Shown here in pieces: positions 3,986-17,930 of a DNA stretch of 37,117 nt; positions within the stretch are counted from its first letter, which is position 1, and every line of letters starts with the position of its first letter. The position numbers and the translations under genes were made by a program. The stretch comes from a bacterium (lineage in GTDB: Bacteria > Bacillota > Clostridia > Christensenellales > Aristaeellaceae). The DNA is taken from contig JAQXJZ010000051.1 of NCBI GenBank assembly GCA_029009515.1, positions 1-37,117 on the forward strand, in the 5' to 3' direction. A model generated the notes under the pieces. It did not search any database. It saw only the letters and a program-made list of their open reading frames with translations, and was not told where the DNA came from.

Positions 3986-4000
3986 TCCTTACGGTTATTC

Positions 4001-4032
4001 AAAAAGGGCCGTGGCATTGCCATGGCCCTTTT
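4001..4032 (+). terminator. Intrinsic terminator, probably partial, between binding protein and ATPase
   Basis: AAAAGGGCC and GGCCCTTTT arms extended by TGGC/GCCA around an ATT loop form a long stem 15 bp after the stop codon. The next gene starts 43 bp later with no obvious promoter between, so read-through is likely needed. This would lower importer subunits relative to the binding protein. Confidence 0.75.
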
Positions 4033-4074
4033 CCCCAGTTTATCGCAAGAATTCCGAGAAACGGGTGTGAACGC

Positions 4075-5553
4075 ATGAATCTTTCCATGAAGGGCATCGT
4101 CAAATCCTTTGGAGCCAATGACGTGCTCAAATCGGTAGACTTCAACCTCAACGAGGGCGAAATCTGCGCGCTGCTTGGCGAAAACGGCGCTGGCAAATCC
4201 ACGCTGATGAACATCCTGGGCGGCGTGCTTTCTGCCGACAAGGGAACCATCGAGCTGGATGGCAAGCCGGTTTCCTTTGCTAACCCTGCTCAGTCGCTGA
4301 GCGCAGGCATTGCTTTCATTCATCAGGAGCTGAACCTGATCAATGACCTGCCGGTGTATGAAAATATGTTTATTGGCCGTGAAATCAAGAAGCGCAGCGG
4401 CTTTCTGGATCACAAAGCCATGTATCAGAAGACGAAAGAACTGTTCGACAGCATGGGTCTGGAGATTGATCCCGGCACCATGGTGTCCTCGCTGGACGCT
4501 TCTTTTAAACAGATTGTCGAAATCTCACGCGCGCTGATGATGAATGCTTCCATCATCATCATGGACGAGCCCACCACATCGCTCACCGATCCTGAGATTG
4601 AGCGCGTTTTTGATATGCTGCGAATGCTGAAGCAGCAGAAGGTAGCCGTCATTTTCATCTCGCACAAGCTTCGCGAGGTGATGGAAATCTGCGACCGTTA
4701 CACCGTTCTTCGCGACGGCGTTCTGGTGGCTGACGGCTATGTGAAGGATACCTCTATTCCTGAAATTGCCCGTCACATGGTTGGCCATGAGGTAAAGACC
4801 GGCACAAGCAGCCGTGAGGTACACCTTGGTGACGAAGTGCTTCGCCTTGAAAACCTGACCCAGGAGCCCTATTTCCGCAACGTGAGCCTGAAGGTTCACG
4901 CGGGTGAGGTGCTGGGTATCACCGGCCTGCTGGGAGATGGCCGCAGCGAACTCTTCCGTACGGTGTTTGGCGCTGAAGGAAAATATCAGGGCAAGATTTA
5001 CGTAAACGGCAAGCCGGTCACCATGACATCCACCCAGCAGGCGCTGGGGCTGGGCATTGGTTATCTGCCGCGCAACCGCAAGGAAAACGGCATTATCAAG
5101 GATATGGACATCCTTGAAAACGGCTCCATCGTCACCATGCCAAAGACCACGAAGTTTGGTCTGATCCGCGCTGGTGAACTGCTCAAGCAGTTCCGCACTC
5201 AGCGTAAGAATCTGCAGATCAAGATGGAAAACGAAACGGATTCCATCACCAGTCTGTCTGGCGGCAACCAGCAGAAGGTGGTGCTGGCCAAGTGGCTGAG
5301 TGCCAATCCGAAGCTTCTGATTCTGGATAACCCCACGCAGGGCGTGGACGTGGGCGCGAAGGAAGAAATCTACGATATTATCCTTCGCCTTGCGGACGAG
5401 GGGGTTGCCATTGTGGTGCTTTGCAGCGAGGCGCAGGAAATCATCCGCCTGTGCGATCGCGCACTGGTGATGTATCATGGCACGGTGCGCGCCGAGGTAA
5501 GCGGCGAAAGCATGAACGAGCACGAAATGATGCGCCTGGCCACCGGCGGCTAA
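4075..5553 (+). CDS. Sugar ABC transporter ATP-binding protein, double cassette (RbsA/MglA-like)
   Basis: The 492-residue protein has two fused ABC cassettes, the layout of ribose/galactose/xylose importers. Cassette 1 has Walker A GENGAGKS (residues 35-42), a degenerate signature, and Walker B MDEPTT with the catalytic Glu at 165. Cassette 2 has a degenerate Walker A (GLLGDGRSE), a full signature (LSGGNQQK) and Walker B LDNPTQGVDVGAK, where the usual catalytic Glu is Asn419. Such asymmetry, with one hydrolytic site, is common in this family, and the Asn strengthens it here. It should power import with the permease starting 30 bp downstream and the binding protein upstream. Confidence 0.92.
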   Translation: MNLSMKGIVKSFGANDVLKSVDFNLNEGEICALLGENGAGKSTLMNILGGVLSADKGTIELDGKPVSFANPAQSLSAGIAFIHQELNLINDLPVYENMFIGREIKKRSGFLDHKAMYQKTKELFDSMGLEIDPGTMVSSLDASFKQIVEISRALMMNASIIIMDEPTTSLTDPEIERVFDMLRMLKQQKVAVIFISHKLREVMEICDRYTVLRDGVLVADGYVKDTSIPEIARHMVGHEVKTGTSSREVHLGDEVLRLENLTQEPYFRNVSLKVHAGEVLGITGLLGDGRSELFRTVFGAEGKYQGKIYVNGKPVTMTSTQQALGLGIGYLPRNRKENGIIKDMDILENGSIVTMPKTTKFGLIRAGELLKQFRTQRKNLQIKMENETDSITSLSGGNQQKVVLAKWLSANPKLLILDNPTQGVDVGAKEEIYDIILRLADEGVAIVVLCSEAQEIIRLCDRALVMYHGTVRAEVSGESMNEHEMMRLATGG

Positions 5554-5583
5554 TGCGATTTTTGAGAGGAGATATACATACCC

Positions 5584-6630
5584 ATGACACAGCGTACGAA
5601 CGTACCCAATGAAACTTTCATGCAGAAAGCGATTCGTCTGTGGAAGTCCAAGCCCATCTTCTCCACCGCGTGCGTGCTGGTGCTGATGGTGATTTTGCAG
5701 ACGCTGGCGCTTGGTTTTGAATTTGAAACCTTCGGCGAGTGGTTCAGCTTCTGGGGCCGCAACTGGATCAACATTCTGCGCAACAATGCCAACGTGGGCA
5801 TCGTGGCGCTTGGCATGACCTTTGTCATCATCTCCGGCGGCATCGATCTGGCGGTCGGCTCCACGCTGGTGGCCGTCGGTGCCGTGCTGATGGTATTCGT
5901 CAATCAGTATCCCACCGGCCTGCTGACGGCTGCCGGTATCACTGGCGTGCCTGCCTTTGCCATTGGCATTCTGGCCTGCATGCTGATGGGCTGCGCGCTG
6001 GGCGGCATCTCCGGCTTCCTGGTTTCCAAGCAGAAGCTGCCTGCCTTCATCGCTACCCTTGGTATGATGAAGATCTGCCGCTCTGTTACCCAGCAGCTGA
6101 TGCAGACCCAGGGTGTGAAAGTACCCCCGGCTTTCCTGAGCATTTCCAACTTCAAGATCGGCGGTCAGGTCATCCTGCCTATCATCTACTGGCTGATCAT
6201 TGCCGTCATCCTGCACATTGTTTCCAAGAAGACGCCCTTTGGCCGCCAGGTGTTTGCCATCGGTTCCAACGAGCGCACCGCCCGCCTCTCCGGTATCAAC
6301 GTGGAGAAGGTCAAGTGGCTGGTGTACGTGCTTTCCGGTTTCCTGGTTTCGATCGCCGCGATCATCCAGGTTGCCCGTATCGGCAGCATGGACTACGCCA
6401 ATGCCGGCAGCGGCTATGAGATGGACGCTATCGCTGCGGTTGTGGTTGGCGGCACCAGCATGAGTGGTGGCCGTGGTTCCATCCTTGGCACGGTGCTTGG
6501 CATGCTGATCATCGCCGTGATGAACAATCTGCTTAACCTGATGGGCGTACCTCCCTTCCTGCGCGAAGCGTTCAAGGGCTTTATCGTTGTTGCCGCCGTC
6601 CTTCTGCAGAAGAAGGAAAGTGATTCCTGA
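5584..6630 (+). CDS. Sugar ABC transporter permease (RbsC-like)
   Basis: This 348-residue integral membrane protein belongs to the BPD_transp_2 family. About eight to ten hydrophobic segments are visible, starting near residue 24. Family motifs include GMTFVIISGGIDLAVGS near residues 78-94, FIATLGMM, GSNERTARLSGI and VVVGGTSMSGGRGSILGT near the C terminus. As in ribose and galactose systems, a homodimer would form the pore with the double-cassette ATPase. Only one permease gene is present, unlike rhizobial rhamnose systems that use two. The start lies 10 nt after a GAGGAG site. The gene is in one unit with its neighbours. Confidence 0.92.
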   Translation: MTQRTNVPNETFMQKAIRLWKSKPIFSTACVLVLMVILQTLALGFEFETFGEWFSFWGRNWINILRNNANVGIVALGMTFVIISGGIDLAVGSTLVAVGAVLMVFVNQYPTGLLTAAGITGVPAFAIGILACMLMGCALGGISGFLVSKQKLPAFIATLGMMKICRSVTQQLMQTQGVKVPPAFLSISNFKIGGQVILPIIYWLIIAVILHIVSKKTPFGRQVFAIGSNERTARLSGINVEKVKWLVYVLSGFLVSIAAIIQVARIGSMDYANAGSGYEMDAIAAVVVGGTSMSGGRGSILGTVLGMLIIAVMNNLLNLMGVPPFLREAFKGFIVVAAVLLQKKESDS

Positions 6631-6656
6631 TCCTAGATTGAAAGGAGAACACCCAT

Positions 6657-7703
6657 ATGCTTCGAATTGGCGTTATTGGATGCGGAAAAATCAGTCAGGT
6701 TCGTCACTTGCCGGAATATGCAGACCGCGAGGATTGCAAAATTACTGCGCTGTATGATCTCAATATGGAGCGTGCCAGGGAACTGGCGGAACAGTATGGC
6801 GCAGAGGCTTTTGAAAGCTGTGAAGCGCTGCTTGCCAGCGACAACGTGGATGCTGTGAGCGTCTGCTCCTCCAACACCACCCATGCCGAGATTACCATCG
6901 CTGCGCTCAAGGCCGGGAAGCACGTGCTGTGCGAAAAGCCCATGGCCACCACGCTGGAGGATTGCGAAGCCATGGTTGCTGCTGCCAAGGAGAGCGGCAA
7001 GCGCCTGATGATTGGTCAGAACCAACGCCTTGCCGGTGCTCATGTAAAGGCCAAGGAACTGATTGATGAAGGCGCTATCGGCAAGGTAATCAGCTTCCGC
7101 ACGGCGTTCCGTCATGCCGGCCCTGAGCGTTGGAGTGTTGATCCAGGCCTGTCCACCTGGTTCTTTGACAAGTCGCGTGCCGCTATGGGTTCGCTTGCCG
7201 ACCTGGGTGTGCACAAGGCGGATCTCATCCAGTATCTGACCGGTCAGACCATCGTGGAAGTGCTGGCCAGCGCTGTGGTTCTGGATAAGAAGTTTGCGGA
7301 TGGTTCTCCCATCACCGTGGAGGACAACGCCATGTGTGTGCTCACACTGAGCGACGGCGCTGTTGGAACCATGGATGTGTCCTGGACCAACTACGGCCCC
7401 GAGGATAACTCCACCGTCGTGTACGGCACAGATGGCATCCTGCGCATCTATGACGACGCTGAGCATACGCTGATTCTGCACAAGCGCAGCGGCGAAGTGT
7501 TCAACTATGACGTTGACCAGATTCAGACCAACGATAACCAGACCAAGTCCGGCATCATCGATCTGTTCGTGGAGTGGATCAAGGACGAAAACGTGGCCGG
7601 CATTTCCGGCGAAAGCGTTCTGCCTGCCATGCGCGCTGTGTTTGGCGTTCTGGAAGCTGCTGAAAAGAAGTGCGCTGTCAAGGTCAATGTTCAGGAGGCA
7701 TAA
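6657..7703 (+). CDS. Gfo/Idh/MocA family NAD(P)-dependent oxidoreductase
   Basis: The 348-residue enzyme has an N-terminal Rossmann fold (IGVIGCGKIS, residues 4-13), the EKPMA motif carrying the catalytic lysine, and a C-terminal alpha/beta domain with DLGVHKADL, the conserved Asp/His pair that binds and protonates substrate. Family members oxidise sugars or inositols at a ring or chain hydroxyl. It sits 26 bp behind the permease with AAAGGAG in front. The gene for a TIM-barrel isomerase begins 2 bp after its stop, so the three proteins probably handle one imported substrate. The exact substrate is not evident; inositol-like and aldose-like compounds are both possible. Confidence 0.88.
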   Translation: MLRIGVIGCGKISQVRHLPEYADREDCKITALYDLNMERARELAEQYGAEAFESCEALLASDNVDAVSVCSSNTTHAEITIAALKAGKHVLCEKPMATTLEDCEAMVAAAKESGKRLMIGQNQRLAGAHVKAKELIDEGAIGKVISFRTAFRHAGPERWSVDPGLSTWFFDKSRAAMGSLADLGVHKADLIQYLTGQTIVEVLASAVVLDKKFADGSPITVEDNAMCVLTLSDGAVGTMDVSWTNYGPEDNSTVVYGTDGILRIYDDAEHTLILHKRSGEVFNYDVDQIQTNDNQTKSGIIDLFVEWIKDENVAGISGESVLPAMRAVFGVLEAAEKKCAVKVNVQEA

Positions 7704-7705
7704 GC

Positions 7706-8521
7706 ATGGAGAGGATCATTGCGGTCAATTCCAACTGCTATCACGGCTTCAGCATTGAAGAAGCCATCGAAGGCATCAGCCGCGCCGGCTTTCGCTACAT
7801 TGAGCTGACGGCCACCAAGGGCTGGACGGAGCATGTTTTTCCCGATCAGAGCTTTCAGCATCTTCTGGATGTGAAGGACGCCATGGACAAAGCGGGTTTG
7901 ATTCCGTTCAGCATGAGCGGTCACTGCAACCTGATGGATACCGAGCGTATTGGTGATTTCATCAGCAATATCCGTCTGGCTGCGTTTTTTGGCTGCACCT
8001 ATATCGTCAGTTCTATCGGCGAAGCGCATCTCAAGGACAACGCTGTGGTGGATAACGAAACCGTTGCTGGCTATATCGCCGCGCTGGTTCCGCATCTGGA
8101 AAAGTATAACCTTACGCTGGTGCTTGAAACGCATGGCAAGGAGCATGGTACTGGCAAGATCCTGTCTGAAATTGTCAGGCTGGTGAACAGCGAGCGTGTC
8201 AAGGTGAATTATGATACGGCCAACGTCGTGTTCTATGGCCGCGTCAATCCGGTTGAGGATCTTGCATCCTGCATTGATGACGTTGCCTATCTGCATCTGA
8301 AGGAAAAGGCCGGTGCAGAAGACGTGTGGGATTTCCCGGCGCTGGGCAAGGGCTGGATTGATTTCCCCGGTATCTTCGCCCTGCTGAAGGAAAAGCAGAA
8401 CAACAGCCCCTTCAGCATTGAAATTGAGTTCACCGCTGCTGGCCCCAAGGATCTGGATGAGGTGAATCAGGCCGTTCAGGACAGCGCGGATTATCTGCGT
8501 GCCCACGGATTTACCCTGTAA
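7706..8521 (+). CDS. Sugar phosphate isomerase/epimerase family (xylose-isomerase-like TIM barrel)
   Basis: The 271-residue protein belongs to the AP_endonuc_2 fold family that includes IolE, IolI and D-tagatose 3-epimerases. Metal ligands are visible in order: Glu in LVLETHG, Asp in VNYDTANV, His in YLHLKE and Glu in FSIEIEF, the usual four ligands of a divalent-metal barrel. It likely isomerises, epimerises or dehydrates the product of the adjacent dehydrogenases. An ATG further upstream in frame would overlap the previous gene. I chose ATG 7706 because AGGAGG lies 8 nt before it and the core begins at once. The gap to the upstream stop is 2 bp, indicating translational coupling. Confidence 0.85.
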   Translation: MERIIAVNSNCYHGFSIEEAIEGISRAGFRYIELTATKGWTEHVFPDQSFQHLLDVKDAMDKAGLIPFSMSGHCNLMDTERIGDFISNIRLAAFFGCTYIVSSIGEAHLKDNAVVDNETVAGYIAALVPHLEKYNLTLVLETHGKEHGTGKILSEIVRLVNSERVKVNYDTANVVFYGRVNPVEDLASCIDDVAYLHLKEKAGAEDVWDFPALGKGWIDFPGIFALLKEKQNNSPFSIEIEFTAAGPKDLDEVNQAVQDSADYLRAHGFTL

Positions 8522-8532
8522 CAAACATGATT

Positions 8533-8575
8533 GCCCAGAAGAGCAGGGCGCAGGCGCGCTTTGCTCTTTTTGGGC
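8533..8575 (+). terminator. Hairpin with T tract after the isomerase gene, possible partial terminator
   Basis: Nested arms AGAGCA (8540-8545) and TGCTCT (8562-8567), with an outer GCCCA/TGGGC pair and an inner GCGC/GCGC, lie 11 bp after the stop codon, and a T run follows the inner stem. The next gene has its own ribosome site but no clear promoter, so this probably sets a step in expression. Confidence 0.5.
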
Positions 8576-8598
8576 GAAGCAACACAGGAGGCTGTACA

Positions 8599-9564
8599 AT
8601 GAACATTCTGCTTGTCGGTTTGGGTGGCATGGGTACCTGCCATTACATGAATGACCTGCACATTGAAACTGCCAATGTCACAGCGCTGGTTGGCTGCACT
8701 GACAGTGACCGCGCACGTGCTGCGGAGTGGAGGCTGCCCATCTATGCTACCATTACAGAAGCCTGCGGGGCGCATGAGATTGATCTGGTGGACGTATGTA
8801 CGCCCACGTATCTCCATAAGCCGCTCGTGCTGGAAGCTCTGAGCAATGGCAAGCATGTGATTGTGGAGAAGCCGATTGCGCTTTCCTATGCTGATGCGCT
8901 GGAAATGTATGAGGCTGCTGACAAAGCAGGCGTGCAGCTGTATGTGGCGCAGGTTTTGCAGTTTACCCGCGAGGTGGAGACGCTGCGCGAAGTGGTAGCC
9001 GATCAGCGCTATGGCAAGCCTCTGGACGCCTGCTTCGAGCGCCTGAGCGCCTGCCCGAAGTGGACGCAGGGTGGATGGCTGTTTGACAAGCAGAAGAGTG
9101 GACTTTTGCCTTTTGATCTGCACATCCACGATCTGGACGTTATCATCAGCATGTTTGGCAAGCCGGATCGGGTTTCCTACACTCGCTGCAGCGGCGAGGG
9201 AAAGGAATATGCCGAGCATTATCGCTTCCAGTACAGCTATCAGAATGGCATGAATGTGGCTTCTGAAGCTGCGTGGTTCAATGCCTGCATTCCGTTTACG
9301 GCCCGTTGGCGCGTGTACTTTGAGCGCGGCATGCTCATCTGCGATCACGATGGCCTGACGGGCTATGGTGCGGATGGAGACGTGGTGCACTTTGATGTGG
9401 AAGATCCCATCAAGGTACCTTGCGGCATCAATCTGCCTGACAGCGGATGGTTCCTGCGCGAACTGGGCCATCTCGTTTCCTGCGCTGAAAAGAATCAGCC
9501 CTCTCCGCTTGTCCCGCGGCAGCGCGTGCTGGATGTGCTGAAAGTGCTGGAAAGCATCGATTAA
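8599..9564 (+). CDS. Second Gfo/Idh/MocA family oxidoreductase
   Basis: This 321-residue protein shows the nucleotide motif VGLGGMG (residues 6-12), the VEKPIAL motif with the catalytic lysine, and FDLHIHDLDVI, the substrate-site His/Asp element of this family. It differs strongly from the other family member 0.9 kb upstream, so it is not a recent duplicate. The two could oxidise and reduce at different carbons, the scheme used for scyllo-inositol and some keto-sugars. A longer in-frame start exists at 8527, but its extra residues are encoded by the hairpin above. The start at 8599 has AGGAGG 10 nt before it and begins directly with the Rossmann strand. Confidence 0.85.
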   Translation: MNILLVGLGGMGTCHYMNDLHIETANVTALVGCTDSDRARAAEWRLPIYATITEACGAHEIDLVDVCTPTYLHKPLVLEALSNGKHVIVEKPIALSYADALEMYEAADKAGVQLYVAQVLQFTREVETLREVVADQRYGKPLDACFERLSACPKWTQGGWLFDKQKSGLLPFDLHIHDLDVIISMFGKPDRVSYTRCSGEGKEYAEHYRFQYSYQNGMNVASEAAWFNACIPFTARWRVYFERGMLICDHDGLTGYGADGDVVHFDVEDPIKVPCGINLPDSGWFLRELGHLVSCAEKNQPSPLVPRQRVLDVLKVLESID

Positions 9565-9568
9565 TCCA

Positions 9569-9597
9569 TTGTCTTTCTCTGGATAATGCCTTAGAAT
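9569..9597 (+). promoter_or_regulatory. Candidate promoter for the ParB-BMP gene
   Basis: TTGTCT (9569-9574), a 17-bp spacer and TAGAAT (9592-9597) lie in the gap after the second dehydrogenase. Each box has a small deviation from consensus. If real, the ParB-BMP, phosphoesterase and AraC genes form a unit separable from the importer operon. Confidence 0.45.
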
Positions 9598-9635
9598 GCA
9601 GTGCGTAACGAAAAATAAGCGTTCAGGAGGGTCAA

Positions 9636-11579
9636 ATGAGCAGACAGGCAGCACTTTCGCAGTATCTTTATGCGCGCAAACTGGCTCAGAAATACTATAA
9701 AGCATGCACCGTGCATGGACAGTATCCCTACACCCAGGTGCTCAATGAGGTTTTTACAGAAAACGCCGCAGCCGGACGTGTCAACGTAGGCCTGGTGGAT
9801 ATCCCCATGGAATTGATTGTAGGCAGTACAACTGCAGGCAGACGATCTGCTTTTGCCGGCAATTTTATGCCTATGCTGGATGAAGGTACCGAGTTTGCCG
9901 ACAAATGGATTCATCTGTGTGAAGCCCATCTGGACCGTGGCGGCATTTCGGATCCGATTGTCTGCTGGGAATACCTGGGCAAATTCTATGTGGTAGAGGG
10001 CAACAAGAGGGTCAGCGTACTCAAGAGCTACGGCAATCCCAGCATTCCCGGCTATGTTACACGCATCCTTCCGCCCTGGTCGGAGGATGAAACGGTACAG
10101 ATCTATTATGAGTTTCTGCCGTTTTATCAGCTGAGCGGATTGTACAACATCACCTTTACCGCGCGTGGCAGCTATGAAAAACTGCAGGCAAGGCTTGGCT
10201 TTGCGCCCGATCATGTGTGGACGGACGATGAGCGCAGCGAGTTTTTGTTTGGCTACCGCAAGTTTGTGGAAGCCTTTGAAAAGGTAAACGCAGGCCGACT
10301 GGAGATCACTGCGGGAGATGCGCTGCTTGTATGGCTGCAGATGAATCCGCCTCAGGATCTTCAGCACACGGATCTGGTGAAGAGCCTGCAGGCTGCATGG
10401 CCTGATGTGATGATTTTTGCCAACGGATCGGCTATTTCGCTCAGCACCTCGCCTCAAACTGCTGAAAAGCCTGATCTGACCAGAATGCTCGGCTTTGGAC
10501 GGGTTAACCATCTGAAACTGGCGTTTATCTATGCGTACGATCCTTTGCGCAGCAGCTGGACCGCTGCGCACGAAACCGGCAGAATGCTGCTGGAGAGCGA
10601 AATGGGCGACAGGATCACCACGCAGACCTATTACTGTGGTGATGGCGAACCTCTGGACAGCATGGAACAGGCTGTTGCCGATGGCGCTCAGATGATCTTC
10701 GCTACCACGCCGCCCATGATTGGCGCTTGCAGGCAGATTGCAGCAAAGCATCCCCATGTAAAGGTGCTCAACTGCTCGCTGTCCATGCCGTATGCGGGCG
10801 TGCGCACCTATTACAGTCGCATTTTTGAAAGCAAGTTTATCACCGGTGCGGTGGTTGGCGCCATGGCCAAAGAGGATCGCATTGGATATGTTGCCAATTA
10901 TCCCATTCTTGGCACGGTGGCAGCCATTAACGCTTTTGCGCTGGGCGCCCGTATGACGAATCCGCGTGCCAGAATTTCGCTGCGCTGGTCCTGCCTGCCG
11001 GGCAATCCTGTGCGTTCTTTGCTGGATGAAGGCATCAAGGTCATCTCCAACCGCGATTCCGACAAGAACGAACCGCATTGGGCCTGGGAATGGGGCACCT
11101 ACAGCGTGGAGGATGATGGAAGCCTTATGCCGCTGGCTTCGCCGCGCTGGAACTGGGGCAAGTTCTACGAAGGCGTTGTGCAGAGTGTGTTTGACGGAAG
11201 TTGGAATGCGCTGAGCGCCAAGAATCCGCAGGCCGTCAACTACTGGTGGGGCCTGAGCAGCGGTGTGATTGATGTATCTCTCAGTCCTGCACTGCCCGAG
11301 GGCGCCAAACAGCTTGCCAAGATTCTCAAACAGGGGATCATTGATGGAAATATCGACCCGTTCTGCTGCACCGTGAACGATCAGCAGGGGAAGATGCGTA
11401 TTGATGGCGAACATACGCTTTCTGCCGAAGAGATTATCCATATGGACTGGCTTGCAGAAAATGTGGATGGCATCATTCCTGAATTTGATGACATCCTGCC
11501 CGTATCACAGCAGATGGTGCGGCTGCTTGGCATCAGGCGCAACGAAATCAAACCACAGCCCGAGGAGGTTATTTTGTGA
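9636..11579 (+). CDS. Cytosolic fusion of a ParB-like domain and a BMP (basic membrane protein) ligand-binding domain
   Basis: The 647-residue protein has no signal peptide or membrane segment. Residues about 50-145 look like a ParB/sulfiredoxin-type fold: a strand entering VDIPMELIVG, then SDPIVCWEYLGKFYVVEGNKR (106-125), where EGNKR takes the place of the ParB box. Residues about 293-610 resemble the BMP/PnrA family, type I periplasmic-binding proteins that usually bind nucleosides outside the cell (LAFIYAYDP, GAQMIFATTP, FITGAVVGAM, RIGYVANYPI). The middle (150-290) is helical and unassigned. A cytosolic BMP domain suggests sensing rather than transport. ParB-fold proteins can be CTPases, nucleases or, in archaeal SerK, serine kinases, so the activity is open. 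The stop overlaps the next start by 4 bp. Confidence 0.75.
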   Translation: MSRQAALSQYLYARKLAQKYYKACTVHGQYPYTQVLNEVFTENAAAGRVNVGLVDIPMELIVGSTTAGRRSAFAGNFMPMLDEGTEFADKWIHLCEAHLDRGGISDPIVCWEYLGKFYVVEGNKRVSVLKSYGNPSIPGYVTRILPPWSEDETVQIYYEFLPFYQLSGLYNITFTARGSYEKLQARLGFAPDHVWTDDERSEFLFGYRKFVEAFEKVNAGRLEITAGDALLVWLQMNPPQDLQHTDLVKSLQAAWPDVMIFANGSAISLSTSPQTAEKPDLTRMLGFGRVNHLKLAFIYAYDPLRSSWTAAHETGRMLLESEMGDRITTQTYYCGDGEPLDSMEQAVADGAQMIFATTPPMIGACRQIAAKHPHVKVLNCSLSMPYAGVRTYYSRIFESKFITGAVVGAMAKEDRIGYVANYPILGTVAAINAFALGARMTNPRARISLRWSCLPGNPVRSLLDEGIKVISNRDSDKNEPHWAWEWGTYSVEDDGSLMPLASPRWNWGKFYEGVVQSVFDGSWNALSAKNPQAVNYWWGLSSGVIDVSLSPALPEGAKQLAKILKQGIIDGNIDPFCCTVNDQQGKMRIDGEHTLSAEEIIHMDWLAENVDGIIPEFDDILPVSQQMVRLLGIRRNEIKPQPEEVIL

Positions 11580-12169
11580 AAATCCTGCTGATATCTGACG
11601 AGGAATCGCCCTATCTGTGCGAACATTTCCAGCCCGGCAGGCTTGATGGGATCGACCTGATCCTTTCCTGCGGCGACCTTGCGCCCTCGTATCTGAGCTT
11701 TCTGGTTACGATGGGCCGTGCGCCCCTGCTGTATGTGCATGGGAATCACGATGGGCGCTATGCCAAAACGCCGCCGGAAGGCTGTGAGTGCATAGAGGAT
11801 ACCATCGTCAATATCGGCGGTTTGCGCATTCTGGGTCTGGGCGGATGTCAGCGTTACAGGCCCGGCCCGCACCAGTATACGGAAGCGGAGATGGAAAGGC
11901 GAATCCGCAGACTGCGCTGGCAGCTTTGGAAGCATGGAGGCGTGGACATTGTGATTTCCCACGCCCCTGTGCGCGGATATGGCGACAGAGATACGATGGT
12001 TCATCGCGGGTTTGAGGCGTTTCTGAAGCTGCTGAATACGTACAAGCCCAAGTACTGGGTTTATGGACATGTTCACATGAGTTACTCCAACAATCAGCCG
12101 CGCGTGCTGCAGCATGGCGCAACCACGCTGATCAACGCCTGTGAGCGTTATATCATTGATGTGAACTGA
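11576..12169 (+). CDS. Calcineurin-like metallophosphoesterase with an altered first motif
   Basis: The 197-residue protein has metallophosphoesterase motifs: CGDL (GD), HGNHDG (GNHD), ISHAP and YGHVH (GHxH). The first motif, normally DxH, reads DEE at residues 8-10, so one metal-ligand His is replaced by Glu. This could change metal preference or activity. Small enzymes of this class hydrolyse phosphodiesters or nucleotides. The gene starts with GTG inside the last codons of the ParB-BMP gene (GTGA overlap), with CGAGGAGG upstream. The two proteins are thus probably made together and may act on the same ligand or nucleotide. An AraC regulator gene follows 26 bp later. Confidence 0.82.
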   Translation: MKILLISDEESPYLCEHFQPGRLDGIDLILSCGDLAPSYLSFLVTMGRAPLLYVHGNHDGRYAKTPPEGCECIEDTIVNIGGLRILGLGGCQRYRPGPHQYTEAEMERRIRRLRWQLWKHGGVDIVISHAPVRGYGDRDTMVHRGFEAFLKLLNTYKPKYWVYGHVHMSYSNNQPRVLQHGATTLINACERYIIDVN

Positions 12170-12195
12170 TCTGTTGCTGTGGAAGGACGAAAGAA

Positions 12196-13167
12196 ATGAA
12201 CGCTGAGCTTCTCAAACGGCTTTCCGAACCAACGCAGGAGGAAATGCGCCTTCTGCAGGGCGAGCCGCTTGAAAAGGATACATATACCCAGGGGGCTTCT
12301 CAGGTTTTTTCCAGCCGGAAGCTTCTGCCGCCCAGCCGCATGATCGCCCTTCGCAAACATACGCGCTTTGCCGCTTTTCCGCCTCATAGTCACGATTATA
12401 TCGAAATTCTGTACATGATCAGTGGCAAGACGGTTCACGAAATGCCCGGCTATCCTACCCTGACCCTCAGGGCTGGCGAGCTTCTGATGATCAACTGCCA
12501 TGCCACACACGGCATTCAGCGCTGCGGCGAAGAGGATATCGGCGTCAATTTTATCATCCGGCCTGCCTTTTTTGATGATGCGCTGGCAATGCTTGGTTCT
12601 TCCAATGCCCTTGGCCGCTTTCTGCTGGATGCGCTGGGCAGAGGCGAGAGCAGCGTGCCATATCTGCATTTCAGGGTGGCGGAGATTCCATCCATTCAAA
12701 GTCTGATGGAAAGCGTGCTCTATCGTCTGATTGAGCAGGAAGATGTGCATCAGCGCACGCTGAAGGCGGCCATGTCTCTTCTGCTGCTGGATTTGCTGGA
12801 AAATACCGCGCATCTTTCCATGCCGCACGGCAGGGGAAACGAGCTGGTGCTTTCTGTGCTGGAGGAAATTGAGCAGCATTATGCTTCCATCCGCTTTGAT
12901 GAGCTTGCGCAGAAACATGGCGTCTCTGCCGCCTACCTCAGCAAGGTGGTTCAGAAAACCATGGGGGAAAGCTGCACGCAGATTCTGCAGCGCAAGCGGA
13001 TTGCTCAGGCGCGATGGCTGCTGCGTGATTCCGACTTGTCGATTGTGGAGGTGGCCGAGGCAGTCGGCTATGAAAACACGGGACATTTCTACCGGCTGTT
13101 CAAACAGCACACAGGCATGAGTCCCAAACAATATCGCGAGGTTAATTCAGGACGCAATCTCAGTTGA
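12196..13167 (+). CDS. AraC-family regulator with cupin sensor domain, likely rhamnose activator
   Basis: This 323-residue protein has an N-terminal cupin-like sensor (HSHDYIEILYMISGKTVHEM at about 65-84, then LRAGELLMINCHATHG) and a C-terminal pair of helix-turn-helix motifs: FDELAQKHGVSAAYLSKVVQ, then IVEVAEAVGYENTGHFYRLF with the family signature ending GMSPKQYR. RhaR and RhaS have the same layout. It lies directly upstream of rhaBADM in the same orientation, and the rhaB promoter has a good -10 but poor -35 box, as expected of an activator-dependent promoter. The link to rhamnose is inferred from position. It might instead control the upstream genes. Confidence 0.82.
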   Translation: MNAELLKRLSEPTQEEMRLLQGEPLEKDTYTQGASQVFSSRKLLPPSRMIALRKHTRFAAFPPHSHDYIEILYMISGKTVHEMPGYPTLTLRAGELLMINCHATHGIQRCGEEDIGVNFIIRPAFFDDALAMLGSSNALGRFLLDALGRGESSVPYLHFRVAEIPSIQSLMESVLYRLIEQEDVHQRTLKAAMSLLLLDLLENTAHLSMPHGRGNELVLSVLEEIEQHYASIRFDELAQKHGVSAAYLSKVVQKTMGESCTQILQRKRIAQARWLLRDSDLSIVEVAEAVGYENTGHFYRLFKQHTGMSPKQYREVNSGRNLS

Positions 13168-13186
13168 TTGCCGTCCTTTTCTTTTT
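13149..13186 (+). terminator. Intrinsic terminator overlapping the end of the AraC gene
   Basis: AGGACG pairs with CGTCCT and, past a one-base bulge, CAAT with ATTG, followed by TTTTCTTTTT. The 5' arm lies within the last codons of the AraC gene. It separates this gene from the rha operon. Confidence 0.7.
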
Positions 13187-13199
13187 GGATTTGCCAAGG

Positions 13200-13205
13200 T
13201 ATAAT
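13200..13205 (+). promoter_or_regulatory. rhaB operon -10 box (activator-type promoter)
   Basis: A perfect TATAAT stands 29 bp before rhaB with no recognisable -35 hexamer at 16-18 bp spacing. The site follows directly after the AraC-gene terminator. The missing -35 box fits dependence on an AraC-type activator bound just upstream. Confidence 0.55.
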
Positions 13206-13233
13206 GTGAATAGAAAAAGGAGGTGGCCCCCCT

Positions 13234-14631
13234 ATGAGATGCTTCCTCGCAGTGGATATCGGCGCGTCCAGCGGACGCCACATTGCAGCGTGGCTTGAGA
13301 ATGGCCGCGTTCAAACGCAGGAGGTTTACCGTTTTCCAAATGGCGCACAAATGAAAAACGGTCATCTTTGCTGGGATCTGGAAGGACTGTGCAATCATGT
13401 TACGACCGGTCTCAAAGAGGCAAAGGAAAAGGGCTTTGAACCTGTCAGCGTTGGCATTGACACCTGGGCGGTTGATTTTGTCCTGCTGGACGAGAAAGAT
13501 CAGCCCGTTGGCGATTTGGTTGCTTACCGTGACAGCCGTACGCAGGGGATGGATGCGCTGCTTGAAAAGACCCTGTCTTTTGAAAAACTGTATGCCATCA
13601 CCGGCATTGCCAAGCAGCCCTTCAATACGGTTTATCAGATGATGGCCGTGCTTCAGGAGCATCCCGAATACCGCGAGCAGGTGCAGGATTTTCTGATGGT
13701 GCCGGAGTATCTGGCATACTGGCTGACCGGAAAGAAGCTGCATGAGTGGACCAACTGCTCCACCACAGCCCTGGCTGATGCCAAAACCAAGAACTGGTCT
13801 CCTGAAGTACTGGCAGCCGCCGGTCTTCCTGAATACTGGTTCCGCACGCCTGTTGCGCAGCCCGGCGCTTCGCTTGGCAAGCTGCGCGCTTCCATCCGCG
13901 AAGAGGTTGGCTGCAATCCCGAGGTCATCGTAACGGCTACGCATGATACCGGCAGCGCATACATCGCTGTGCCTGCGCGAGACGATCATGCTGCGTTCCT
14001 TTCCAGCGGTACATGGAGCCTGCTGGGTACGGAGCTGAAGGAGTGCTGCACCGGCGTGGACAGCTGCAGAGCCGGATTTACCAATGAAGGCGGATATGCG
14101 CAAACCACCCGCTATCTCAAGAACATCATGGGAATGTGGATGCTGCAGTGCATCCGCGAAGAGATCGGCAAGCAGTATACCTTTGCCGAAATGGCCGAAA
14201 TGGCTGGCCGATCGGATTATCCGGCGTGGGTGAATGCAACGGACAACCGTTTCCTTGCACCGGAAAATATGCTGGAAGAGGTCAAAGCAGCGCTGCGTGA
14301 ACAGGGTTCGCCCGAACCCCGCGATCTTTCCGATCTTCTCCGTGCTGTGACGGTCGGCCTTGCAGTATGCTACCGAGACGCAATTTCAGAGATGAGCACC
14401 ATCACCGGCAAGGCGTTTACCTCGCTCAACATCGTGGGCGGCGGCTGTCAGAACGAGGTTCTGAACAGGATCACAGCTGAGCTGACCGGACTGCCCGTCT
14501 ATGCCGGTCCTGTTGAGGGAACGGCTATTGGCAATCTGATTGTGCAGATGATTGCGTCCGGCGATATCGCTTCCCTGCAGGAAGCGCGTGACATTGTAAA
14601 ACAGAGCTTTGATATCAAGGAGGTTTGCTGA
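13234..14631 (+). CDS. rhaB: Rhamnulokinase
   Basis: The 465-residue FGGY-family kinase phosphorylates L-rhamnulose to L-rhamnulose 1-phosphate. It begins with the phosphate-1 motif FLAVDIGASSGR, with WDLEGL and GIDTWAVDFVLLD in the first domain, ATHDTGSAY and SSGTWSLLG around the adenosine/phosphate site, and VGGGCQNEVLN near the C terminus, all as in RhaB. Length is close to the E. coli enzyme (489). The start has AAGGAGG 10 nt upstream. It is first of four co-oriented rha genes, and rhaA starts 2 bp after its stop codon. Confidence 0.95.
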   Translation: MRCFLAVDIGASSGRHIAAWLENGRVQTQEVYRFPNGAQMKNGHLCWDLEGLCNHVTTGLKEAKEKGFEPVSVGIDTWAVDFVLLDEKDQPVGDLVAYRDSRTQGMDALLEKTLSFEKLYAITGIAKQPFNTVYQMMAVLQEHPEYREQVQDFLMVPEYLAYWLTGKKLHEWTNCSTTALADAKTKNWSPEVLAAAGLPEYWFRTPVAQPGASLGKLRASIREEVGCNPEVIVTATHDTGSAYIAVPARDDHAAFLSSGTWSLLGTELKECCTGVDSCRAGFTNEGGYAQTTRYLKNIMGMWMLQCIREEIGKQYTFAEMAEMAGRSDYPAWVNATDNRFLAPENMLEEVKAALREQGSPEPRDLSDLLRAVTVGLAVCYRDAISEMSTITGKAFTSLNIVGGGCQNEVLNRITAELTGLPVYAGPVEGTAIGNLIVQMIASGDIASLQEARDIVKQSFDIKEVC

Positions 14632-14633
14632 AA

Positions 14634-15896
14634 ATGAGCTACCAGGAAGCAAAAGCAAAGTACGAGGCCCTTGGCGTTGACGTGGAAGCCGCGATGGCGA
14701 GACTGAAGGATGTTCCTGTTGCCATGCATTGCTGGCAGGGCGACGACGTGCGCGGTTTTGACCAGAAGAGCGATGGCCCGCTGACTGGGGGCATCCAGAC
14801 CACCGGCAACTATCCCGGCCGCGCCACCACTCCTGAAGAGTTGATGGCTGACATCGATGTGGTGCTGTCCCTGTGCCCCGGTACCAAGAAGATCAATCTG
14901 CATGCCAGCTACGCCATCTTTGACGAAGAAAACGGCGGTTGGGTGGATCGTGACAAGATTGAGCCCAAACATTTCAAGAAGTGGGTGGAATTCTGCAAGG
15001 AGCGCGGTCTGGGCGCTGATTTCAACCCCACGTTCTTCTCTCACCCCAAGTGTGATCCTTTGACCCTTGCTTCTCCCTGCGAGGAGACCCGCAAGTTCTG
15101 GATTGAGCACGGCAAGGCCTGCATCCGCATCAGCCAGTACCTGGCCGAAGAACTGGGCCAGCCCTGCATCATGAACATCTGGACCGGCGACGGTTTGAAG
15201 GATATCCCTGCCGATCGCATCAGCCCCCGCAAGCTGTATCGCGAATCTATTGACGAAATCCTCTCCGAGCCTTATGATTTCAATATGGTCAAGCCCTGCG
15301 TGGAATCCAAGGTGTTCGGCATCGGCGTGGAAGCCTACACCGTTGGCAGCAGCGAGTTCTCCCTGTGCTACGCCGCCATGAACATGGATAAGTGCATTCC
15401 GCTGATGGACAACGGCCACTATCATCCCACCGAGATGGTGAGCGACAAGATTCCGGCGCTGCTCAGCTTCTTCCCGGAAATCGCGCTGCACATCACCCGC
15501 CCCATGCGCTGGGACAGCGACCATGTGGTGCTGCTGGATGACGAGACCAAGGAAATCTGCAAGGAGATTGTGCGCTGCGGCGGCCTGGATGGCGCTGTGA
15601 AGATTGCCACCGACTACTTCGATGCTTCCATCAACCGCGTCTCTGCGTGGACGGTTGGCATGCGCAACGTGCAGAAGGCTCTGCTGATGGCGCTGGTTAC
15701 GCCCCACCAGATGCTGGCGGATCTGCAGAATCAGGGCAATTTCACCGAACTCATGGTTCGTCAGGAAGAGCTCAAGACCATGCCTTTCGGCGAGATCTGG
15801 GATGAGTACTGCCGCCGCTGCGGCGTTGCCGTGGAGGGCGAGTGGTTTGAAACCGTGAAGGCCTACGAACGCGATGTGCTGAGCAAGCGCGCCTGA
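14634..15896 (+). CDS. rhaA: L-rhamnose isomerase
   Basis: The 420-residue enzyme converts L-rhamnose to L-rhamnulose in a metal-dependent TIM barrel. Its length matches E. coli RhaA (419). Family stretches include VAMHCWQGDDVRGF, TGGIQTTGNYPG, KINLHASYA, GADFNPTFFSHPK, IWTGDGLKD and MDNGHYHPTE with metal-binding His/Asp residues. ATG 14634 is preferred to an in-frame TTG nine bases earlier because AAGGAGG ends 9 nt before the ATG. Nested between rhaB and rhaD, it performs the first step of the pathway. Confidence 0.96.
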   Translation: MSYQEAKAKYEALGVDVEAAMARLKDVPVAMHCWQGDDVRGFDQKSDGPLTGGIQTTGNYPGRATTPEELMADIDVVLSLCPGTKKINLHASYAIFDEENGGWVDRDKIEPKHFKKWVEFCKERGLGADFNPTFFSHPKCDPLTLASPCEETRKFWIEHGKACIRISQYLAEELGQPCIMNIWTGDGLKDIPADRISPRKLYRESIDEILSEPYDFNMVKPCVESKVFGIGVEAYTVGSSEFSLCYAAMNMDKCIPLMDNGHYHPTEMVSDKIPALLSFFPEIALHITRPMRWDSDHVVLLDDETKEICKEIVRCGGLDGAVKIATDYFDASINRVSAWTVGMRNVQKALLMALVTPHQMLADLQNQGNFTELMVRQEELKTMPFGEIWDEYCRRCGVAVEGEWFETVKAYERDVLSKRA

Positions 15897-15920
15897 ACAA
15901 AAGACAAGGAGCGAAAGAAT

Positions 15921-16748
15921 ATGTCTGGTATGCTGAATACGCCCGCGATGAAGGGCTTCATGAAAACCTGCAAGGACGGCTGGGATCAGGGCTGGCATGA
16001 GCGCAACGGCGGTAACCTGACCTACCGCCTGACCGATGCTGATCTGGAAGCGATGCGTCCTTTCTTCTACGCCGAACCCCGCGAGTGGGTTTCCATGGGC
16101 GTGACGGGCGCCAATCTGGGCGGTTCCTACTTCATCGCCACCGGCAGCGGCAAGTATTTCCGCAATGTGGAACTGAACCCCGAAGATTCTGTGTGCGTTG
16201 TTGAGATCAACGAAGCGGGCGACAGCTATCGCATCGTGTGGGGCCTGATCAATGGCGGCCGTCCCACCAGCGAGTTCCCGACTCATTTTATGAACCACAG
16301 CGTTCGTGTGTCTGCAACGGGTGGCGCCTGCCGCGTGATCTATCATGCGCATACCGCCAACGTGATTGCACTGACCTATGTGCTGCCCCTGACTGACCGC
16401 GATTTCACCCGTGCACTGTGGAAGTCTGCCACGGAATGCCCTGTGGTGTTCCCCGGCGGCGTTGGCGTGGTGCCGTGGATGGTGCCCGGCGGCGCGGACA
16501 TCGCGCTGGCCACTTGCGAGAAGATGAAGAAGTACGAGGCTTCCATCTGGGCGCAGCATGGCACTTTTGTGTCCGGCCCCGATTTTGACACCGCCTTCGG
16601 CCTGATGCACACCATCGAAAAGGCTGCGCAGATTCATGTGCTGGCCCTGTCCTGCGGCATGGGCATCCGCCAGACCATCGAAGACGATGACCTGCGCGCC
16701 ATTGCCAGGGAATTTGGCGTGGACATCCGCGAAGAGTTCCTTGACTGA
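15921..16748 (+). CDS. rhaD: Rhamnulose-1-phosphate aldolase
   Basis: This 275-residue class II aldolase cleaves L-rhamnulose 1-phosphate to dihydroxyacetone phosphate and L-lactaldehyde. The zinc ligands are in place: His142 and His144 (YHAHTAN) and His213 (AQHGTF), with catalytic Glu118 (SEFPTH), one residue offset from E. coli numbering. RNGGNLTYR and TGSGKYFRN form the phosphate site region. It is the third gene of the rha unit, 24 bp behind rhaA, with AAGGAGCGAAAG before the start. No lactaldehyde reductase or dehydrogenase gene is in the window. Confidence 0.96.
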   Translation: MSGMLNTPAMKGFMKTCKDGWDQGWHERNGGNLTYRLTDADLEAMRPFFYAEPREWVSMGVTGANLGGSYFIATGSGKYFRNVELNPEDSVCVVEINEAGDSYRIVWGLINGGRPTSEFPTHFMNHSVRVSATGGACRVIYHAHTANVIALTYVLPLTDRDFTRALWKSATECPVVFPGGVGVVPWMVPGGADIALATCEKMKKYEASIWAQHGTFVSGPDFDTAFGLMHTIEKAAQIHVLALSCGMGIRQTIEDDDLRAIAREFGVDIREEFLD

Positions 16749-16763
16749 TCGGGAGGAATGCAT

Positions 16764-17081
16764 ATGGAACGCATGGCATGGAAGGGACGCATCAAGCCCG
16801 GCTGCAAGGCGGAATACATCCGCCGCCATGATGAGATCTGGCCGGAGATGAAGGAACTGCTGAAATCCGCAGGCATCTGCAACTACACCATCTTTGCCAA
16901 CGGCGAAGAGCTGTTTGGCTACTATGAGTGTGAAAAAGGCATTGCCTTTGCGGAAAAGACGCAGGCGGACAGCCCCATCGTGGACAAGTGGAACGAATAT
17001 ATGAAGGATATTCTGGAACTGGAGATGGATCCCGAAACGGGCGCACAGCCCAAACTGGAGCCTGTTTTCCGTCTGGACTAA
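16764..17081 (+). CDS. rhaM: L-rhamnose mutarotase
   Basis: The 105-residue protein matches the RhaM/YiiL family that interconverts alpha and beta anomers of L-rhamnose. Family features are MAWKGRIKPG at the start, EYIRRHDEIWPEM with the catalytic His, NYTIFANGEELFGYYE in the middle and EPVFRLD at the end. An ATG six bases upstream (16758) lies only 1 nt from GGGAGG, whereas ATG 16764 has a 7-nt spacing, so I take the latter. It is the last rha gene and is followed by the terminator at 17092-17133. Confidence 0.93.
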   Translation: MERMAWKGRIKPGCKAEYIRRHDEIWPEMKELLKSAGICNYTIFANGEELFGYYECEKGIAFAEKTQADSPIVDKWNEYMKDILELEMDPETGAQPKLEPVFRLD

Positions 17082-17085
17082 GCAA

Positions 17086-17114
17086 TTGGCAAAGCCCCTG
17101 TGCTGTGGTACAAT
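17086..17114 (+). promoter_or_regulatory. Promoter for cutC and the asparaginase gene, nested in the rha terminator
   Basis: TTGGCA (17086-17091), exactly 17 bp, then TACAAT (17109-17114) preceded by a TGG extended -10 element. The -10 box sits in the loop and the spacer in the stem of the rha terminator. It would start transcription near 17121, about 63 nt before cutC. Confidence 0.65.
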
Positions 17115-17133
17115 AGCAGCACAGGGCTTTTTG
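17092..17133 (+). terminator. Intrinsic terminator of the rha operon
   Basis: AGCCC and TGTGCTG on the left pair with CAGCACA and GGGCT on the right around a 10-11-nt loop, followed by TTTTTG, 10 bp after the rhaM stop. It would separate the rha genes from cutC except for the nested promoter. Confidence 0.8.
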
Positions 17134-17183
17134 TACCTTGGTTGATGAGCCACCGGCGCATGCCGGTTTGTTCAGGAGGAAAA

Positions 17184-17930
17184 ATGATGGATAAGATTTT
17201 GATGGAAGTCTGCTGTGGTTCGGCTGATGATGTTATTGAGGCGTGGAAAGGCGGAGCGGATCGTGTGGAGCTGAACTCCAACCTGTTTCAGGGCGGTCTG
17301 ACGCCTACAGTGGGCTCGCTGCAGGTGGTCAAGCAGCATGTGGACATTCCCGTGCTGACCATGGTTCGTCCGCGAGGCGCCGGTTTTTGTTACACGGATA
17401 TCGAATACGAAACCATGAAGGCCGATGCAAAAGAACTGCTGAAAAACGGTTCGGATGGACTGGTGTTTGGCTTCCTTCATCCGGATGGAACGGTCGACGA
17501 GGAACGCACGAAGGCGTTTGTGGACATTGCAGGCGACAAGCCCAGCGTGTTCCATCGTGCATTGGATGTAACACCGGATTGGAAACGTGCGCTGGATTCA
17601 CTTATCCGCGTGGGCGTTACGCGCGTTCTGACCAGCGGCCAGGCGTCGGATGTGTTCTTTGCGTTGGAAACCATTGCGGAGATGATCCGCTTTGCTGGCG
17701 ATGCTATCGAAATCCTTCCCGGCGCTGGCATCACGCTGGAAAATGTGCAGCGCGTGGTGGAGATTACCGGCTGCAAACAGGTGCATGTGGCGCGCCATAA
17801 AACGGTGATGGATACGTCTACCATCAACAACCGCAGCATTTATTATGGCGGAGCGCTTTATCCGCCGGAAGACAGGTTTGACATGACAGACAGCGGCTAC
17901 ATTGCCTCTGTGCGCTCCAGGCTGGGATGA
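17184..17930 (+). CDS. cutC: CutC family protein
   Basis: The 248-residue TIM-barrel protein carries CutC signatures: MEVCCGSADDV and GADRVELNSNLFQGGLTPT at the start, TMVRPRGAGFCYTD, DGLVFGFLHPDGTVD, VFHRALDVTPD, LTSGQ and LPGAGIT. CutC was named for copper tolerance in E. coli, but a direct role in copper handling is disputed and its catalytic activity is not settled. The start is ATG 17184 with AGGAGG 5 nt upstream. A longer in-frame start at 17100 would fall in the terminator and promoter. An asparaginase-like gene follows 10 bp later, so the two are probably one transcript. Confidence 0.9.
   Translation: MMDKILMEVCCGSADDVIEAWKGGADRVELNSNLFQGGLTPTVGSLQVVKQHVDIPVLTMVRPRGAGFCYTDIEYETMKADAKELLKNGSDGLVFGFLHPDGTVDEERTKAFVDIAGDKPSVFHRALDVTPDWKRALDSLIRVGVTRVLTSGQASDVFFALETIAEMIRFAGDAIEILPGAGITLENVQRVVEITGCKQVHVARHKTVMDTSTINNRSIYYGGALYPPEDRFDMTDSGYIASVRSRLG

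Follow-up and report, generated by a model that had tools for sequence, protein, structure and literature searches.

What is the task of a gene that joins a ParB-like module to a BMP/PnrA-type ligand-binding domain, lacks a signal peptide and overlaps the gene of a metallophosphoesterase (MPE)? The two genes lie on contig JAQXJZ010000051.1 of assembly GCA_029009515.1 (Aristaeellaceae, Clostridia), positions 1 to 37,117 of which make up the stretch analysed here (the window, 37,117 nucleotides); an earlier note had picked them out from the letters alone and read them as a sensor-effector pair. The features on which that reading was built, namely the gene fusion, EGNKR at residues 121-125, the absent signal peptide and the 4-bp overlap with the MPE gene, were all confirmed on the sequence. 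We computed the fold of the fused protein, its location (by sequence), its pairing with the MPE, the exchange of its C-terminal part among relatives, the changes in its ligand pocket and the atypical motifs of the MPE. The ParB-fold protein and the MPE are inherited and found together and form a real unit, whose core is these two proteins and whose C-terminal part is exchangeable, suggesting a signalling switch with swappable sensors. The earlier note saw neither that the core extends beyond the BMP fusion nor that the MPE belongs to an atypical subfamily. Coordinates are collected in Table 1.

Adjacency of the two genes was counted on a six-frame profile search of the loci (numbered L; genomes are numbered G), which replaced gene calling with a home-made codon model because that model had missed the fused gene in L039, L043 and L075. 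With the window's included, 53 frames carry both the N-terminal domain (N-domain) and the BMP domain, and only two pairs among them are at least 90% identical. An MPE lies beside the fused frame on the same strand in 49 of the 53, in either gene order; four frames depart from this. In L073 the MPE is found ~1.3 kb upstream; L055 and L064 have no adjacent MPE, both genomes carrying one elsewhere (that of L064 beside a second fused gene); and L071 ends at a contig end, the other half of its gene (G052:C293) adjoining an MPE. The same holds for the truncated L078, which is not among the 53 and whose other half (G033:C161) adjoins an MPE, and L046, where the BMP half alone matched, was kept outside the counts. 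Measured at the gene level, the 4-bp overlap is present in 23 of 43 pairs and the MPE gene comes first in 7 of 43; the start of L067 is misplaced in this gene-level set, and both L067 and L071 are present among the six-frame frames. Searching the loci of 100 genomes gave 61 matches, part of which hold 31 full or split fused genes. The fused gene also occurs in other Clostridia and in Collinsella: in Collinsella aerofaciens (Actinomycetota) the pair is present, again with a 4-bp overlap, beside rplA, rplK, nusG and tuf. The record concerned (L145; NZ_OY725717.1) is a 0.9-Mb 'plasmid 6' that carries rplA, rplK, nusG, secE and tuf and is therefore probably chromosomal. Besides the MPE, no neighbour was common to all loci surveyed: clustering of 595 other called genes from 48 loci gave 401 clusters, and the most widespread after the pair, which contains the window's ABC ATPase, was present in 10 loci.

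Table 1. Features of the fused gene and its partner, with residues, positions in the window, strand and basis
Feature	Residues	Positions	Strand	Basis or remark
Fused gene, 647 amino acids: predicted ParB/sulfiredoxin-fold core, helical domain and BMP domain, without signal peptide	1-647	9636..11579	+	
Predicted ParB/sulfiredoxin-fold core	47-145	9774..10070	+	Predicted structure and Foldseek
EGNKR, matching the phosphate-binding Box II motif (GxxR) of the ParB-CTPase fold	121-125	9996..10010	+	Motif as defined in the main text of PMC12704722
Helical domain	150-263	10083..10424	+	Helices in predicted structure
BMP/PnrA-type ligand-binding domain	291-616	10506..11483	+	Sequence and fold matches
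Trp308, in the place of base-stacking Tyr45 of AtzT	308	10557..10559	+	AtzT contacts from PMC6834077
Partner MPE, 197 amino acids	1-197	11576..12169	+	4-bp overlap with upstream stop
MPE motif I, Asp8-Glu9-Glu10	8-10	11597..11605	+	No His where DxH is usual

Co-occurrence was counted in 398 genomes (the window's included), with profile thresholds of E 1e-15 for the MPE (25 genomes) and E 1e-8 for the N-domain (27 genomes); the two 398-genome sets were taken as identical, since their handles and counts agree. Both proteins were detected in 24 genomes, the MPE only in 1, the N-domain only in 3 and neither in 370 (Fisher p 3.7e-34, a descriptive value that ignores kinship and comes from profiles both built from paired genes). 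Across 30 loci, N-domain, BMP and MPE distances are correlated, with Spearman coefficients of 0.79-0.85 (0.79 for N-domain versus MPE) and a Mantel p of 0.001. In a tree of 65 MPE sequences, one branch (support 98/91; root not known) has all 49 BMP-partnered MPEs on the same side, a branching that fits one capture of the BMP domain.

The same core was found with another C-terminal part. Over the 398 genomes of the phylum, the N-domain profile matched 24 genomes besides the window's, and 13 loci from other families of the phylum (L119-L131) encode proteins of ~320 amino acids in which the ParB core, carrying D-G-N/H-H-R, and the helical domain are followed by a cysteine-rich tail; the MPE lies directly upstream in 13 of 13. 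Profile-profile alignment joins the BMP-fused and the cysteine-tailed N-domains over 196 columns (E 4.2e-17). Two CxxCxxxC (ferredoxin) motifs are present in 8 of the 13 tails (7 of 12 aligned, plus L124 by eye), and in L119-L123 four of the ferredoxin-type cysteines are kept. Four tailed proteins were scanned: Fer4 families were matched above cut-off by the three that have two motifs and not at all by L119, which has four cysteines. It looks as if the tails of L119-L123 were changing function with the MPE unchanged. The stored genome sequence of L124 is masked over part of the C-terminal region of its N-domain protein. Shorter forms exist as well: L135 consists of an N-domain without a tail, plus the MPE, and five proteins (L132, L134, L138, L143, L144; frames of 127-183 codons, from other families of the phylum) hold barely more than the ParB/sulfiredoxin core. 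No MPE lies within ~5 kb of these five short ParB-only proteins or of one weak match, the MPE being carried elsewhere in 4 of the 6 genomes (in 4 of 5 for the five short forms). By its coordinates only, a further short form in G374 lies ~0.2 kb from an MPE. The sensor-effector reading of the earlier note gains from this ParB-fold/MPE pair being kept while relatives swap the BMP domain for a cysteine-rich tail, and it stays conditional: since the core is constant and the tail variable, the tail would most simply be the input and the MPE the output.

A place inside the cell is supported for the BMP domain by sequence. The open frame of the fused gene reaches 9 codons above its ATG (656 codons from stop to stop), which leaves no room for a hidden signal peptide, and an AGGAGG site lies upstream of this start. 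No leader was present in the 41 fused proteins examined (the window's included), in which the most hydrophobic 12-residue segment of the first 50 amino acids scores at most 1.30. Homologues that do carry signal peptides were unfused paralogues in 12 of 12 cases: in these stand-alone BMPs the stretch before the domain contains a hydrophobic segment scoring 2.67-3.27, and at all four loci checked (of 12) they have ABC ATPase or permease genes as neighbours. L079 was dropped as a fused locus, as its match was to the BMP domain only and it proved to be a stand-alone BMP with a leader; the hydrophobic segment in its first 50 amino acids scores 0.52. Going by public annotation, where a homologue from Collinsella bears the name 'BMP family ABC transporter substrate-binding protein', the fused protein would simply bind solutes for a BMP transporter, and the window does hold an ABC ATPase and a PF02653 permease 3 kb upstream of the fused gene. 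That transporter, however, owns a binding protein, Peripla_BP_4, at 3047-3982; the secreted paralogues with their leaders and ABC genes are separate proteins; and the signal peptide or lipobox beside its own transporter that goes with BMP/PnrA binding proteins is absent from the fused protein. On the missing leader, the transporter context and the transporter's own binding protein we ruled out a transport protein, whose chance we put at next to nil; this also corrects a transport annotation.

The N-domain was modelled with AlphaFold2 from 15 sequences (mean predicted local distance difference test score, pLDDT, 80.9; the other four of five models, 59.0-71.6). In this model a strand (47-57), a helix (86-100), two strands (108-113 and 116-121), a helix (123-131) and a strand (136-145) form a predicted alpha/beta core of the ParB/sulfiredoxin superfamily type, and residues 150-263 are mainly helical. 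A Foldseek search placed Noc and ParB on top (best, Noc, E 7.6e-6; all 13 chains below 1e-3), followed by sulfiredoxins from E 1.7e-3, SbnI at 0.025-0.043 and SerK from 0.038. The ParB superpositions are loose over the whole length (root-mean-square deviation, rmsd, ~15-20 Å), the best sulfiredoxin chains superpose at 3.4-4.0 Å (others up to 7.4 Å) and SbnI at 2.1-2.3 Å over 91 columns. We regard the ParB assignment as above chance, given the E of 7.6e-6 for the best fold match and the 53 open frames that encode the fused protein. The fold search that the earlier note had proposed hence agrees with its ParB-like module, as it does with its BMP assignment (see below). Pfam ParB families, PF02195 included, matched neither the window's N-domain nor any of 34 N-domains scanned, so the ParB label rests on the fold and on a chain of profiles. 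Searched against solved structures, a profile of the 34 N-domains found Arabidopsis sulfiredoxin best, at a non-significant E of 0.14, with EGNKR over GCHR. Relatives provide a sequence bridge to ParB, mostly under curated cut-offs: L126 matches a PHROG ParB-like family (E 5.6e-8), L127 matches TIGR00180 (E 3e-4) and, best among relatives, PF02195 (E 0.0024; 18.3 bits versus a cut-off of 26.3), and a profile of the relatives finds ParB 6sdk (E 0.0054) and sulfiredoxin (E 0.019). The GxxR motif, whose Arg is required for nucleoside triphosphate (NTP) binding in ParB-fold proteins according to the main text of PMC12704722, is kept as EG[NH]KR in 34 of 34 fused proteins and as DG[NH]HR in 13 of 13 cysteine-tail relatives. 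The ParA-binding motif [LFI]G[KR]G[LFI] was absent from the first 60 residues of all 34 and from the whole of the window protein. For the helical part, four of four cysteine-tail relatives scanned match a piece of DUF4032 (PF13224), two of them above cut-off; the PF13224 model had no match over 21 genomes (the window's and 20 relatives), 3 of 14 control genomes did match, and our literature search found no paper on DUF4032.

The SerK and SbnI matches raise the main rival to a sensor-effector switch. SerK-like chemistry would make the pair a writer and an eraser: a ParB-fold phosphotransferase like these two serine kinases of the ParB/sulfiredoxin fold would act on a small molecule or protein, the MPE would remove the phosphate, and the BMP or cysteine part would set the direction. 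A kinase beside its phosphatase would account for the pairing, the fold search also returned SbnI and SerK (E 0.025-0.06), and the SerK model is matched by the tailed L119 (E 1.9e-6) and the tail-less L135 (8.5e-4). These two matches reach 27.2 and 18.5 bits, however, against a cut-off of 380 (NCBIfam NF053625), and at E 1 nothing in the window protein matched SerK; the core fold is alike and the present family far under the SerK cut-off. We consider this explanation rather unlikely.

Turning to the BMP half, a Pfam scan of the fused protein at E 1 returned Bmp (PF02608) as the sole family (residues 306-451, E 2e-9, 37.3 bits versus a cut-off of 24.1), with no helix-turn-helix. The nearest solved sequences are the periplasmic purine-binding AtzT (6pi5, E 1.8e-32) and the Brucella BMP lipoprotein 3s99 (E 1.3e-29), and by fold a full-length model of the fused protein (pLDDT 79.2) matches AtzT at E 2.1e-22 and PnrA from 1.5e-13. 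We took the guanine contacts of AtzT from PMC6834077. An aromatic residue at the stacking position is shared with these nearest relatives, Trp308 replacing Tyr45 in 34 of 34 fused proteins; the Ser97 place holds Ser or Thr in 29 of 34; and Phe98, which donates a backbone NH, is Pro in 28 of 34. Unlike AtzT and 3s99, the present BMP half is cytosolic and fused, and none of the 34 keeps Glu165, Trp194, Asn218 or Asn220. In all 12 stand-alone BMPs, which stem from relatives and in one case from the window's genome, Tyr45, Ser97, Glu165 and Trp194 are kept; the Asn218 and Asn220 places hold His and Asp, and Thr139 and Asn169 are kept in none. The comparison between fused and stand-alone proteins points to an altered pocket in the cytosolic BMP. 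A guanine sensor copied from AtzT was rejected as stated, as most guanine contacts are lost, and the nucleoside-type ligand that the earlier note had favoured draws no support from this pocket. The BMP half may bind a different aromatic ligand.

Calcineurin-like MPEs usually provide their metal ligands in the motifs DxH, GD, GNHD, H and GHxH. The partner MPE, whose gene starts with a GTG behind its own AGGAGG site, has Metallophos as its best Pfam match (E 1.4e-11, 45.6 bits versus a cut-off of 21.5), and Asp8, GD34, GN57HD, His129 and GH165xH167 are kept in every alignment row, one row ending before the last motif. The third residue of motif I, by contrast with the usual DxH, is Glu in 49 and His in 0 of 66 family members (for one member, overlooked by the pattern search, Glu was assigned by eye). 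By its motifs, the MPE is a predicted atypical subfamily with a non-standard motif I.

With the profile of the MPE, the best solved relatives were the RNA lariat debranching enzyme (E 2.9e-5) and MPPED2 (E 8e-5), which share the motifs GD, GNHD, H and GHxH with it; the present MPE differs from both in lacking the motif-I His (66 members) and in having a dedicated ParB-fold partner. They raise the explanation that the MPE processes RNA or nucleotides, cleaving a 2',3'-cyclic, 2'-5' or similar phosphodiester, with the ParB-fold protein as a metabolite-sensing specificity subunit. As these weak matches fall mainly on the C-terminal half, and no RNA-related gene recurs beside the pair across groups, we judge it distinctly unlikely.

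A further match of the MPE, to the PADLOC model PDC-S10 (E 4.4e-16 over residues 1-189 of 197, the cut-off of the model not being shown; E 3.5e-15 for the MPE of a cysteine-tailed relative), would be in keeping with a role of the pair in anti-phage defence or as a toxin-antitoxin-like system. The pair is also present on a 56-kb Subdoligranulum record, which is labelled plasmid and lacks annotation, so that mobile carriage may occur; our literature search found no paper naming PDC-S10. The PADLOC match of the fused protein is weak, however (7.5e-4), two relatives have none, and no mobile or defence neighbour recurs in the clusters looked at. The Collinsella pair sits beside rplA, rplK, nusG and tuf, co-inheritance is unlike that of a fast-moving defence locus, and a scan of viral contigs gave 11 MPEs at 22-30% identity, all of which makes defence very unlikely. 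In a phage collection 7 records matched, all unannotated faecal scaffolds, one covering 98% and six 43-50% of the query; in a plasmid collection 342 records matched, two of them (Collinsella and Subdoligranulum) with at least 80% coverage. Against PHROGs the fused protein gave nothing at E 1e-3, and the MPE and ParB part of relatives match generic families.

The reading that we prefer is that of a self-contained sensor-effector pair in the cytosol: the sensor, together with a nucleotide bound to the ParB fold, would gate the MPE. We hold it tentatively, at a little under an even chance. Nucleotide binding, docking and gating are the parts that we infer. The ParB-fold domain would bind a nucleotide, the BMP domain would close on a small ligand of the cytosol, probably other than guanine, with Trp308 as its stacking partner, and the helical domain would transmit these states. 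The fused protein may then dock on the MPE and switch its phosphodiesterase or phosphatase activity; in the ferredoxin-type relatives, Fe-S clusters, that is, redox state or iron, would throw the same switch.

Several points weigh against such a switch. Each of its steps is a prediction from sequence and models, contact between the two proteins is presumed, and an enzyme pair without any switch would fit the co-inheritance too. According to the main text of PMC12704722, 17 of 28 purified ParB-fold proteins did not bind NTP, and on the MPE side the loss of the motif-I His puts activity in doubt, as judged from the motifs. Five tails with four cysteines, and L119 without a Fer4 match, mean that 'Fe-S sensor' is not a general description. 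The pairing has its exceptions: at a profile threshold of E 1e-8 the N-domain occurs without the MPE in G126, G387 and G446, a second N-domain profile adds G442, G100 has an MPE with no N-domain detected, and in G115, G401, G423 and G491 a short form and the MPE are non-adjacent. Close relatives also share further neighbours: one gene (a peptidase by eye) lies directly upstream of the pair in six loci of the window's genus, and two groups of cysteine-tailed loci each retain their own.

On a wider scale, the sensor-effector pair may belong to a cytosolic signalling system of Bacillota (also in Collinsella), to which we grant somewhat less than an even chance. Its core would be a ParB/sulfiredoxin nucleotide switch and a dedicated MPE with a non-standard metal site, into which evolution would have plugged either a ferredoxin-like Fe-S tail or a BMP domain, the latter recruited once from a secreted protein of the purine-binding type and retuned to another cytosolic ligand. 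The pair might serve to produce and take away, or to detect and break down, a single nucleotide or phosphorylated signal. If this is true, a sensor-swapping system with one fixed effector and interchangeable inputs is added to the ParB-fold repertoire, and a role of ParB folds beyond chromosome segregation becomes directly testable.

Regulatory use of a periplasmic-binding fold has precedent in the PurR-type LacI repressors and in the comK activator 2hqb, which we take to be Med; both match the fused protein by fold. The fused protein differs from them in lacking a Pfam helix-turn-helix and in having a ParB-fold domain and a phosphoesterase partner. Fusions of the ParB-CTPase fold, including archaeal ParB-CBS proteins (PMC12704722, main text), are alike in that a GxxR ParB fold is fused to another domain, CBS being ligand-sensing. 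That survey (2025) was, by its main text, seeded with PF02195, which misses the present N-domains, and its main text contains no mention of BMP, periplasmic binding, substrate-binding, phosphoesterase, metallophos or EGN. Our literature search, which covered chiefly the main texts of open-access papers, found no paper describing the pair; a two-gene unit of many gut bacteria seems to be undescribed.

The pair of the window lies within a run of sugar genes on the + strand (3047-17927), comprising a sugar-binding protein, an ABC ATPase, a permease, two Gfo/Idh oxidoreductases, a TIM-barrel protein, an AraC regulator, an FGGY kinase, RhaA, an aldolase, RhaM and CutC. This context was not a rule among relatives in the neighbour survey. 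Because neighbourhoods differ between groups, the window's neighbours (rhamnose genes, sugar ABC transporter, AraC regulator) were set aside as a clue to function. In L072 (8078-14917, - strand) the open frame that contains the fused gene runs to 2280 codons, well beyond the length of the gene itself. In five genomes of the window's genus (L048-L051 and L053), a protein of 642-644 amino acids (cluster 5) is encoded near the pair, and its N-terminal part resembles, by eye, a LacI-type binding domain.

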